Of a stretch of 59,539 nucleotides of DNA, positions 3,131-59,539 are shown piece after piece. The stretch's first letter is position 1, and each line of letters starts with the position of its first letter. The stretch is from Clostridiales bacterium. GTDB lineage: Bacteria; Bacillota; Clostridia; Christensenellales; Aristaeellaceae. Both the position numbers and the translations under genes were made by a program. The stretch lies in contig SVGW01000006.1 of NCBI GenBank assembly GCA_015056125.1, positions 1 to 59,539 on the forward strand, given 5' to 3'. A model generated the notes under the pieces. That model did not search any database. It saw nothing but the letters and a program-made list of their open reading frames with translations, and was not told the DNA's origin.

Positions 3131-3154
3131 AGCCGGAGGCAGCAGCTTCCGGCT
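3131..3154 (+). repeat. Terminator hairpin of jag, copy 1 (lacks a U-tract)
   Basis: A 24-base palindromic hairpin beginning AGCCGGA and ending TTCCGGCT. It is identical, loop included, to 3344-3367. After this copy the sequence continues CAGACC instead of a T-run, so it has lost its terminator tail. Confidence 0.85.
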
Positions 3155-3343
3155 CAGACCGCTGACAAACCCCGCAAACGCAAAAATGGCTGCAAGCATG
3201 CGGCCATTTTTGCTTTCTGCGTTGGCGTCGGCAGCAAAACGCGGTCACTTACGTCTATGTAAGCTCCCTTTTTTGCAGCCTCGCCGCCTTGACTTGCAGG
3301 GTTTGTCTCAGTCTGCCCAATCATTGACTTTGTCAATGATTTG
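3155..3343. mobile_element. Putative non-coding palindromic element, copy A
   Basis: This 189-base gene-free stretch lies exactly between two identical copies of the jag terminator hairpin. Its left end CAGACCGCTGACAAA and the reverse complement of its right end, CAAATCATTGACAAA, match at 11 of 15 positions, with transitions at the other four, so they look like terminal inverted repeats. Inside are GCAAAAATGGC paired with GCCATTTTTGC (3180-3212), a GTCAATGATT palindrome (3319-3341), and a second inverted match to the left end (GGGTTTGTCTCAGTCTG at 3299-3315). It shares GCAAAAATGGCT and CCTCGCCGCC with copy B. No protein is encoded. Mobility is inferred. Confidence 0.55.
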
Positions 3344-3371
3344 AGCCGGAGGCAGCAGCTTCCGGCTTTTT
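3344..3371 (+). terminator. Terminator of jag, copy 2 (with U-tract)
   Basis: The same 24-base hairpin as at 3131-3154, here followed by TTTTTAATTT. This is the functional-looking intrinsic terminator for jag or for the intervening element. Confidence 0.85.
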
Positions 3372-42264: not shown

Positions 42265-43488
42265 ATGAAGCTCACTGAAAACGGACGGATACTTAAGGTT
42301 GGCGTTATCGGCCTTGGCGGTCGGGGACGGGGCCAATTAAGACTGATCTGTACCATGCAGGATGTGGAAGTAATGGCGGTGTGCGATCTGCATGAAGACC
42401 GGGTGAAGATGGGCATGGATATTGCCAAGGGCGCCGTGGGTACTCAGGAGTATCATGATATTCTGGCCATGCCCGAAGTGGAAGCCGTGTTTATTTTCAC
42501 CGATTGGGAAACTCATATTCCCATTGCTCTTGAAGCCATGCGCGCCGGCAAGGATGTGGGCATGGAAGTGGGCGGCGCCACTTCTGTAGGCGAATGCTGG
42601 GAAATGGTGCGCACTGCTGAAAAGACCGGAAAAAAGTGCATGTTGCTGGAAAACTGCAGCTATGGCGAAACGGAAATGGCCCTCTATAATATGATTGACC
42701 ATGGCCTTTTTGGAGAACTGGTGCACTGCGAGGGCGCCTATGCCCATGATCTGAGGGATGAAGTGGGCAACGGCGATATCAATCGCCATTACCGCCAGCA
42801 CAATTTCCTTCATCGCAATGGAGAACTGTATCCCACCCACGAGATGGGTCCCATTGCCAAGTATCTGAAGTTGAACCGGGGCAACCGGATGGTAACCCTC
42901 TGCGCCATGGCCAGCAAGGCCCGTGGGCTTACCCATTGGCTGAAGGAAAACCGGCCTGATTCTCCTCTTTGCAATGCCCAGGTGAATGAAGGGGATGTGG
43001 TGACCACCCTAATCAAATGCGCAAACGGCGAAACCATCGTGCTCTCTCACGACTGCACCCTGCCCCGGCCCTATTCCCGTCGCGGGGTTATTCGCGGGGT
43101 GAAGGGCATCTGGATGGAGGATAACAGTTCCATCCATATTGAGCACCTCACCCCTCAAAAGGAAGGGGATTGGACCCATTCCTGGGAAAGCGATGAAAAG
43201 TATATGCAGGAATATCGCCATCCCCTTTGGAAGGCCTATGATGAATTCGGCCAGCGGGGCGGCCATGGCGGCATGGATTATCTGGTGCTTCGCGGCTTTA
43301 TTGAAAGCGTGCAGAACCACACCCCCGCGCCCATTGACGTATATGATACCGCTATGCTCATGAGCATTACGGCCTTGAGCGAAGAATCCATCGCCATGGG
43401 CGGCATGCCGGTGCCTGTTCCTGATTTCACCCAGGGCGGATGGATGAAGGATATTGATACCAAGGGCGAAGGCAACTATAAGCTTTGA
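42265..43488 (+). CDS. Gfo/Idh/MocA-family protein of the GH109 (alpha-N-acetylgalactosaminidase-like) type
   Basis: A 407-residue NAD(H)-binding oxidoreductase-fold protein. The Rossmann motif VGVIGLGGRGRGQL is at the N-terminus. GH109-like blocks follow: LLENCSYGETEMALYNMI, GLFGELVHCEGAYAHDLRDE, HRNGELYPTHEMGPIAKYL and GHGGMDYLVLRGFIES. GH109 enzymes use a bound NAD+ to cleave terminal alpha-GalNAc by a redox-elimination mechanism; the tyrosine/histidine-containing NGELYPTHEMG block agrees. No signal peptide, so it acts inside the cell. Related inositol or sugar dehydrogenases remain possible. AGGTGA precedes the ATG at 42265. Confidence 0.75.
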   Translation: MKLTENGRILKVGVIGLGGRGRGQLRLICTMQDVEVMAVCDLHEDRVKMGMDIAKGAVGTQEYHDILAMPEVEAVFIFTDWETHIPIALEAMRAGKDVGMEVGGATSVGECWEMVRTAEKTGKKCMLLENCSYGETEMALYNMIDHGLFGELVHCEGAYAHDLRDEVGNGDINRHYRQHNFLHRNGELYPTHEMGPIAKYLKLNRGNRMVTLCAMASKARGLTHWLKENRPDSPLCNAQVNEGDVVTTLIKCANGETIVLSHDCTLPRPYSRRGVIRGVKGIWMEDNSSIHIEHLTPQKEGDWTHSWESDEKYMQEYRHPLWKAYDEFGQRGGHGGMDYLVLRGFIESVQNHTPAPIDVYDTAMLMSITALSEESIAMGGMPVPVPDFTQGGWMKDIDTKGEGNYKL

Positions 43489-43496
43489 TAAAAAAA

Positions 43497-43523
43497 TCCT
43501 GCTTTCTTAAATGGAAAGCAGGA
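43497..43523 (+). repeat. Terminator hairpin of the GH109-like gene, copy 1 (lacks a U-tract)
   Basis: A 27-base hairpin TCCTGCTTTC...GGAAAGCAGGA, identical in all 27 bases to 43781-43807. Here it is followed by TAGTTTG, the start of element B. Confidence 0.85.
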
Positions 43524-43780
43524 TAGTTTGTCGAAAAAGTATTTTCGACAAACTGCGAATGGAAGTCAGCTAAAGCAGTCTTCCATTCGATCCATCACAT
43601 TTACTGCAAAAATGGCTTTCCAGCCCTTTTCACAGGGCTGGAAAGCCTATTTTTGCGGTCGTAAATTGATATGGGAAGCGGAATACTTCCGCTCCTCGCC
43701 GCCGCGCATGTCGCCGGCTGCGGATTATAGTCGAAGGGCAGCGGCCCTTCGACGCATCCCAGGGGTTTTTTGACAGGCTG
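43524..43780. mobile_element. Putative non-coding palindromic element, copy B
   Basis: A 257-base gene-free stretch lying exactly between two identical copies of a terminator hairpin. Left end TAGTTTGTCGAAAAA and reverse-complemented right end CAGCCTGTCAAAAAA match at 11 of 15 positions. Five hairpins are packed inside: GTTTGTCGAAAA with its complement (43526-43553), GAATGGAAG (43557-43588), a 21-base-pair stem built from GCAAAAAT-GGCTTTCCAGCCC with one bulge (43606-43656), GCGGAA/TTCCGC (43679-43692) and GTCGAAGGGC (43730-43753). Positions 43525-43691 match copy C with three differences in 167. No coding capacity. Confidence 0.6.
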
Positions 43781-43814
43781 TCCTGCTTTCTTAAATGGAA
43801 AGCAGGAATTTTTT
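43781..43814 (+). terminator. Terminator hairpin, copy 2 (with U-tract)
   Basis: The same 27-base hairpin as 43497-43523, here followed by ATTTTTTGC. It serves the GH109-like gene or the element transcript; the convergent GDPD gene ends four bases later. Confidence 0.85.
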
Positions 43815-43818
43815 GCAT

Positions 43819-44553
43819 TTACAGGCGGCCCAGCACCTTTAGAAGGGGAACGGGATCATTGGCCGTGATAAGATCGGCGCCTTGATTGATAAACAATTGC
43901 ACGTCTTCTTCCGTATCCGCGCAGTACATATGCACCGGCAGGCCCTTGGCCATGAAAATGGGAAATACCTCGGATTTTACGATATTTAAATTCAGACCAA
44001 TTTCATCATAATAATTGTAGGAACCTGCTTCGAATTCCTTCATCTGGAAATCGGGATAGCCCATGGTGCGGCCATTATATTTTTCCTTGATATAGCGAAT
44101 AATGCGGGCATTGAAGGCATAGAAGTAGCAATGCTCAAAGAAACCGTATTTTTTCAGCAGCGCGATGGTCAGATCCACATTTTCTTCGGTGTATTCCTTA
44201 ATTTCCACGCCCAGCCAGATATCGGGGCGCTTTTCCTTGCAAAGGATCAAAAGCTCCTCCAAGGTGGGAACGGTGATACCTTGGTTTTTATAGGTATCGC
44301 CGAATTTTTCTTCATAAATGGGGGAAAGCTCCTTTACCTGGGCAAGGGACAGGGAAGAAAGCAGCACATTTTTTCCGCAGGTGCGAAGGGCATTGGCGTC
44401 ATGCATGAGCACCGGCACCTTATCGGTGGTAAGCCATACATCAAATTCAATGGCGTCCACTCCCAGTTCCATGGCGGCGGCAAAAGAAACCAGGGTGTTT
44501 TCGGGATATTTGGCGCAATAACCGCGATGACCTTCTACCACGATTTTCTTCAT
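43819..44553 (-). CDS. Glycerophosphodiester phosphodiesterase (second copy)
   Basis: A 244-residue GDPD enzyme with VEGHRGYCAKYPENTLVSF, GVDAIEFDVWLTTDKVPVLMHD and WLGVEIKEY, giving the histidines and acidic metal ligands of the family. It shares the reaction with the gene at 38165 but differs widely in sequence, so it is not a recent duplicate. No signal peptide. It is a single-gene unit with GGAGATCA before its ATG. Together with the nearby G3P-oxidation operon it suggests active turnover of glycerophospholipid head groups. Confidence 0.93.
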   Translation of the reverse strand: MKKIVVEGHRGYCAKYPENTLVSFAAAMELGVDAIEFDVWLTTDKVPVLMHDANALRTCGKNVLLSSLSLAQVKELSPIYEEKFGDTYKNQGITVPTLEELLILCKEKRPDIWLGVEIKEYTEENVDLTIALLKKYGFFEHCYFYAFNARIIRYIKEKYNGRTMGYPDFQMKEFEAGSYNYYDEIGLNLNIVKSEVFPIFMAKGLPVHMYCADTEEDVQLFINQGADLITANDPVPLLKVLGRL

Positions 44554-59330: not shown

Positions 59331-59539
59331 CAGTTTGTCGAAAAAGTATTTTCGACAAACTGCGAATGGAAGTCAGCTAAAGCAGTCTTCCATTCGATCC
59401 ATCACATTTACTGCAAAAATGGCTTTCCAGCCCTTTTCATAGGGCTGGAAAGCCTATTTTTGCGGTCGTAAATTGATATAGGAAGCGGAATGCTTCCGAA
59501 CCTCACAATTCGGCATTGTCGCCTGTAAGCGGGGTAAAG
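59331..59539. mobile_element. Putative non-coding palindromic element, copy C (left part)
   Basis: Begins CAGTTTGTCGAAAAA directly after a terminator hairpin. Positions 59332-59498 match 43525-43691 of copy B with three differences (all single-base transitions, in a loop and near the GGAAGCGGAA hairpin). After 59498 the two diverge, with only weak similarity (CGGCATTGTCGCC against CGCGCATGTCGCC). The right end lies beyond the window. No reading frame is plausible. Confidence 0.6.

Follow-up and report, generated by a model that had tools for sequence, protein, structure and literature searches.

A 257-bp mobile element lies in the window (the whole 59,539-nt stretch of DNA analysed here) between two copies of a terminator hairpin that belongs to the host site rather than to the element. 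It is most likely a non-autonomous MITE moved in trans by an IS1182-family transposase, with terminators extruded as cruciforms as its target and with gap repair that copies the target hairpin. We identify the family, IS1182, with good confidence, and we infer that movement takes place in trans. The evidence obtained by computation consists of flanking hairpins that are specific to each site, an empty site in a relative, the duplication of hairpins within a group of IS1182 elements, ends that agree with those of this group, and a core with covarying stems. The features of the locus are as follows.

42265..43488, plus strand: left-hand gene ending at the terminator, 407-aa ORF
43490..43496, no strand assigned: A-tract before the first hairpin copy, the U-tract for transcripts of the right-hand gene (from sequence)
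43497..43523, no strand assigned: host terminator hairpin, first copy, target site duplication (from direct repeat and fold)
43524..43780, plus strand: mobile element, 257 bp, with no ORF of at least 100 aa listed within it
43524..43538, plus strand: left terminal inverted repeat, TAGTTTGTCGAAAAA; CAGTTTG is the start of most copies
43525..43554, no strand assigned: left-end palindrome, formed by the terminal repeat and its inverted copy
43556..43589, no strand assigned: hairpin 2 (helix 2), in which compensatory changes preserve pairing
43593..43760, plus strand: folded core, a 159.8-bit match to model R1, the window copy being among the model's own input rows
43608..43653, no strand assigned: strong central hairpin (helix 4) of the core, with A and T runs on its flanks, terminator-like both ways
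43730..43753, no strand assigned: last hairpin of the core
43766..43780, minus strand: right terminal inverted repeat, whose reverse complement is CAGCCTGTCAAAAAA in the window copy and CAGACTGTCAAAAAA in most copies
43781..43807, no strand assigned: host terminator hairpin, second copy (from direct repeat and fold)
43809..43814, plus strand: T-tract, terminator of the left-hand gene (from sequence)
43819..44553, minus strand: right-hand gene ending at the terminator, 244-aa ORF
59331..59539, plus strand: second element copy, long form, cut by the contig end, with a different hairpin on its left

The two flanking ORFs converge, 42265-43488 on the plus strand and 43819-44553 on the minus strand ending towards each other. 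A preliminary description of this DNA had noted a 27-base identity between 43497-43523 and 43781-43807, a U-tract after the second copy only and insert ends resembling each other as inverted repeats, and all three observations were upheld. The 27-bp direct repeat is exact, is the sole one of at least 12 nt reported in 43300-44000 and folds as a hairpin with an MFE of -16.4; six T follow its second copy and none its first, and the insert ends are imperfect inverted repeats. Seven A before the first copy provide the U-tract of transcripts entering from the opposite side. The same description had also called the 257-base insert palindromic, which we correct here: the insert is a row of separate hairpins and not one palindrome, its left end being itself palindromic. 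Elsewhere in the window, a 24-bp hairpin repeat (3131-3154 and 3344-3367) surrounds a second element, perhaps the one previously named element A; the insert ends of this 3131-3367 element, CAGACCGCTGACAAACCC and CAGACTGAGACAAACCC, are IS1182-like, and an extra hairpin precedes the second repeat copy.

In the draft assembly, which totals 2.86 Mb on 122 contigs and is 82% complete, about 40 matches to the insert were found; at least 11 of them reach a contig end, so that some pairs of matches may represent a single split copy. The element thus breaks up the assembly, and the window's own contig ends within an element copy. We ran the genome-wide check proposed earlier, namely, whether each copy is bounded by identical hairpins whose sequence changes from copy to copy. 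Hairpin repeats of 22-38 bp with a site-specific sequence bound 18 of the 20 copies with both ends readable, a count that omits copies cut by contig ends or missing an end (e.g., L019, L022, L031). A script recovered 17 of these repeats, all distinct in sequence; 16 are exact and the remaining one contains a single mismatch. The 18th, 32 bp long, was read by eye at a diverged copy before rpsB (L025, L041). Copy L016 has an imperfect hairpin repeat, and copy L012 has no hairpin repeat. The attribution of the duplicated sequence to the host site is thus borne out by the difference from copy to copy and by the one-terminator empty site described below, and the hairpin is ruled out as a part of the element since its sequence changes from site to site. 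The long form of the element measures 371 bp (L032). The copy L022 lacks its left end together with half of the first hairpin, and AACTGCG, common to terminator and element, stands at the joint.

The borders of the duplication follow the hairpin closely. Repeat edges lie at most 3 nt from the stem foot in 18/18 repeats of the source genome, and the same was observed in 25 hairpin repeats of IS elements, a set preselected as hairpin repeats. As a control for chance, random window segments of matched lengths were required to have an MFE no higher than -8 and a stem extending to both ends of the segment; 860/20000 segments passed, versus 17/17 repeats tested. Similarly, a strict hairpin (arms of at least 7, loop of 3-8, foot within 4 nt) abuts 26/32 left junctions versus 83/4000 random positions. 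A lenient one-sided fold test was dropped, as random positions passed it in 578/1500 cases; two of the right-end rows counted in it were not element ends. In 15/24 loci, an ORF of at least 90 aa, unconfirmed as a gene, ends within 250 bp on both sides and faces the element. Similar long hairpins were hit at the foot of the outer stem or at that of the inner stem in L005, L029, and L034, as if the stem foot guided the cut.

One locus allowed comparison with a site free of the element. Upstream of rpsB, the relative G021 carries the same upstream gene followed by one terminator and a T run, with no element, whereas the source genome carries at this site the element between two copies of its terminator; the rpsB-site terminators of the two species differ in part, and the comparison is one of one terminator versus two, not a base-exact empty site. 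Orthologues of the window's left gene in four other genomes have differing neighbourhoods and provided no second empty site. The source draft genome has two rpsB genes that are 89% alike and are preceded by different sequences (L184 on C94, L207 on C29), possibly reflecting mixed strains in the assembly. The empty site bears on hairpin replacement as in IS1272 and TnSha1, by which the target would be deleted and the flanking hairpins would be something else. Replacement has been described in the same family and at the same class of target in the available text of two reports (PMC4923244, PMC5678879), but the flanking hairpins observed here are copies of one site-specific sequence and the sole empty site found has one terminator. 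The IS1272-type outcome, with the hairpin deleted and no duplication, is not what the element displays, and we consider replacement scarcely conceivable.

Duplication of the hairpin extends to relatives. Element matches were found in 30 of the 60 genomes searched, comprising every one of the 29 genus genomes, the source included, and a single genome from another genus, and a DNA search detected parts of the element in 31/150 genomes of the family. Among 39 same-genus copies (19 fetched with the search and 20 chosen as near full length), a script used without random control reported a direct repeat of at least 12 nt in 29, of which 27 fold at -5 or lower and two barely fold; the other ten, one of them cut by a contig end, have no repeat.

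The ends of the element point to IS1182. The IS element L178 starts with CAGACTGTCAAAAAAGG, and most copies in the source genome end with CAGACTGTCAAAAAACC when read inwards; the first 15 bases of the L178 start and of this common right end are identical, and the window copy agrees at 14/15. Likewise, the right ends of several relatives, CAGACTGTCGACAAAGTCCCC, are close to the left end of a same-genus IS, CAGACCATCRRCAAAGTCCCGCC. The two IS elements of the genus have CAGACCATC ends, unlike the CAGTTTGTC/CAGACTGTC ends of the element, and the latter agree with the ends found in the hairpin-duplicating group of the IS1182 tree. As regards membership in the IS1182 family as a non-autonomous element, the terminal inverted repeats are IS1182-like, and target and duplication are as in part of the transposase-bearing elements, mostly those of one tree group. 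The element is also short, repeated and without a transposase gene, with inverted-repeat ends and a target duplication, which are the attributes of a MITE. The exact 32-nt left-palindrome pattern gave 0 hits in genome_contigs.

Searches of the 82%-complete source draft with NF033551 and PF13751 found no IS1182 transposase, nor was one with matching ends found in the same genome, and 14 of 29 genus genomes, source included, have no NF033551 match at E 0.001 though all carry the element. A transposase of another family, with similar ends and a similar choice of hairpins, might move the element in the source genome and in the 13 other element-carrying genus genomes where the IS1182 search was negative. 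Such a mover is improbable given that IS1182 elements share the long hairpin duplication and the CAG..TGTC..AAA-type ends with the element, and several of them also a palindromic left end. The IS1182 family remains our preferred source of the transposase.

The transposase-bearing elements were then examined for the same duplication. Within the genus, the NF033551 cut-off is exceeded at two loci (2/29 genomes: G019, G027), one of them with an in-frame stop, and exact hairpin repeats of 33 and 22 bp flank them; other NF033551-matched loci of the genus have no hairpin repeat, only 2/20 (L065-L084, mostly fragments) having one. Eight of 22 named relatives were tested, and hairpin repeats of 33, 22, 32, and 25 bp were found in four, the first two being the two genus loci. 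Among the remaining named relatives tested, L090 carries a different hairpin on each side, two loci are truncated by contig ends and one has a partial gene, which leaves hairpin repeats in 4/5 named relatives with both flanks and a near-full gene. A sample of the phylum contained IS1182 at E 1e-60 or lower in 60/299 genomes; nine of its best 30 loci have hairpin repeats, eight of them exact, and 21 have none, at least four of these being cut by contigs. Further copies drawn from multi-copy genomes have hairpin repeats in 13/20 cases, some with a mismatch, from five genomes, and the seven copies without repeat come from these same five genomes (one copy) and from five others (six copies). On plasmids, exact hairpin repeats flank 3/6 IS1182 loci, in Cetobacterium (22 bp), Sutcliffiella (30 bp, annotated), and Acetoanaerobium (24 bp), while the Exiguobacterium locus has different hairpins on its two sides, the Peribacillus locus shows a hairpin on one side and the Thermocaproicibacter copy runs past the edge of the record. 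An IS1182 family transposase is annotated at 4/6 of these plasmid loci, and the match is unannotated at the other two. A search of the order (L127-L150, 24 loci, mostly diverged or partial) yielded no strong hairpin among exact repeats of at least 14 nt at IS spacing; such repeats occurred at two places, L140 (16 nt) and L143/L146 (one site, 18 nt within a longer imperfect palindrome).

Hairpin duplication is concentrated in one part of the family. In a transposase tree of 33 rows, which omits L128 and L129 and leaves seven rows ungrouped, 11/12 hairpin-duplicating loci fall in one supported group (97/96) of 17 rows, whose single labelled negative is L161. The hairpin-duplication label requires 3 changes on the tree versus 9.0 in shuffles (0/500 as low). 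These hairpin-duplicating elements, from Bacillota and one Fusobacteriota plasmid (L066, L086, L087, L089, L155, L178, L237, L238, and others), share with the element the whole-hairpin duplication, similar ends and, in several, a palindromic left end; they differ in carrying a transposase gene and, in those searched with model R1, in having no folded core. IS1182 elements with a hairpin at each end, the two differing, were seen at L090, L161, and L240, as if these had recombined between copies. In L237, L238, and L240, the palindromic left end is followed by a T run and resembles a terminator of its own.

Usual DDE transposases produce a fixed short stagger, and the repeat lengths listed for the IS1182 family in public IS catalogues vary widely. 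In the hairpin repeats that we read, the duplication is 17-38 bp long and matches, give or take a few bases, the combined length of stem and loop. We propose that the target is recognised by its shape, as an intrinsic-terminator palindrome that probably adopts an extruded, cruciform state. Irrespective of stem length, the two 5' feet of the extruded hairpin would adjoin at the junction, and both strands would be attacked there, each 3' end of the element being joined to the 5' foot of the stem on a different strand. Gap repair would then copy the whole hairpin to both sides. Attack at the feet followed by gap repair would explain why the duplication scales with the stem and loop instead of having the constant size of a staggered cut. 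The left copy would retain the A-tract and the right copy the T-tract, and, to judge from the sequence, both convergent genes can keep a complete terminator after insertion. With a terminator left to each gene in this way, insertion may be near harmless and may be neutral for fitness.

This outcome has a counterpart in a published model. For IS1272, the available text of Wan et al. includes hairpin duplication only as one branch of a model (pathway b) and argues for pathway a, stem-loop removal (PMC5678879). For TnSha1, the accessible part of Furi et al. describes hairpin targets, several of them confirmed terminators, with deletion and no duplication (PMC4923244). Both Staphylococcus papers, in the same portions, cite Siguier and colleagues for the targeting of palindromes by some IS1182 members (PMC5678879, PMC4923244). 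IS1272 and TnSha1/TnSha2 (Staphylococcus, IS1182 family) therefore resemble the element, on the text available, in choosing a hairpin, often a gene terminator, with no sequence consensus, a likeness that concerns their targets; they delete the hairpin with no duplication, whereas the element duplicates it (PMC5678879, PMC4923244). Within the literature covered on IS1182, terminators, palindromes, and MITEs (including the available text of PMC5678879, PMC4923244, PMC9208149, and PMC8868234, with subscription papers mostly outside coverage), we found no report of an observed hairpin duplication. The preliminary description had held that a duplication equal to a whole terminator stem would be unusual for any known transposon; as far as the available text goes, this stands for the duplication of the hairpin and does not stand for its targeting, which is known for IS1272 (PMC4923244, PMC5678879). 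Bacterial MITEs in general (for a review, PMC10969869) are likewise short, multi-copy and gene-less, with terminal inverted repeats and a target duplication. Unlike them, the element duplicates a whole hairpin of variable length and has a covarying core found across families of one order.

The core was analysed on an alignment of 29 genus copies, from which 72 consensus pairs were obtained. Pairing holds in 96.8% of cells, a figure favoured by the derivation of the structure from the same alignment, and slid controls pair 40-56%. Changes on both sides were observed in 32/72 pairs (0/500 shuffles as high), with 239 both-side-change cells versus 72.7 in shuffles (0/500), and further pair types show no clear excess (40/500 shuffles as high). 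A covariance model of the core detected it at E 1e-4 or lower in 14/248 genomes of the order, representing 9/115 genera and six families. The core lies between hairpin repeats in at least 11 of the 34 loci read in other genera (16 loci of a first set of 20, and all 18 of a second), and two of these, L284 and L288, belong to other families. Model R1 had no convincing match among 23 IS1182 loci (best E 1), and no Rfam family matched at gathering score in the copies scanned. Sub-threshold Rfam hits to PyrR (41.3 bits versus 54, E 0.00023), RNAI, and STnc310 differ between copies and were taken as chance. The exact 35-base core pattern gave 0 hits in viral_contigs, and the core DNA of L256 had no match in phages.

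Selection on a fold is one source of such compensatory changes; another would be palindrome repair, by template switching or gene conversion between arms. Consistent with repair, mismatched cells are few, and L001 and L006 carry the central-hairpin loop in opposite orientations (TTTTCACA versus TGTGAAAA), which suggests flipping of the palindrome. Moreover, G-U and A-C cells reveal no clear strand, with 63 versus 34 in one count and 93 versus 50 in another, from which 13/80 aligned matches (weak reverse-strand matches in the palindromic part) and one duplicate row were dropped. However, the unpaired linkers CTCCTCG, CTGCGGAT, and GCATCCC are largely kept between genera and partly between families while stems change, the most distant copies changing more, and arm repair does not explain this. 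Arm repair could account for part of the covariation, and we regard it as a possible, though less favoured, explanation of the compensatory changes in place of selection.

The variable duplication length and the folded core with covarying stems also recall an RNA-borne, SINE-like retroelement, whose structured RNA would be copied by a reverse transcriptase at a nicked terminator. However, the element shares its inverted-repeat ends and its duplication of hairpins with protein-coding IS1182 elements, so that a reverse transcriptase is not needed, and we judge this origin highly improbable. Group IIC introns are likewise structured and insert at intrinsic terminators; they insert beside the hairpin, are not known to duplicate it and encode a reverse transcriptase, whereas the insert here has no ORF of 100 aa. 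Transposition by an IS1182-type enzyme remains the preferred reading, and from the conserved pairing we infer that the element relies on the core, acting either as DNA hairpins or in the form of RNA, to spread itself. A bolder and less certain part of the finding than the hairpin duplication is the mobile conserved fold. We tentatively raise the possibility that the element represents a novel class of mobile structured nucleic acid. Its fold measures ~130-170 nt and occurs in several families, the stems being conserved and the unpaired linkers largely so. Such an element would hitch-hike on IS1182-type transposases, land on and duplicate terminators and leave transcription units intact, and the fold, as RNA or extruded DNA, would be required for movement or would work in the cell.

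Taken together, these loci offer many natural examples of an outcome that, in the published text available, was previously only a model, a target duplication consisting of a whole hairpin of variable length. With them, structure-guided choice of a cruciform target by a transposase becomes directly testable. The covarying core represents an unclassified fold common to parts of one bacterial order. Finally, the arrangement suggests how a mobile element can fill the ends of genes at little cost, as both neighbours can keep a terminator.
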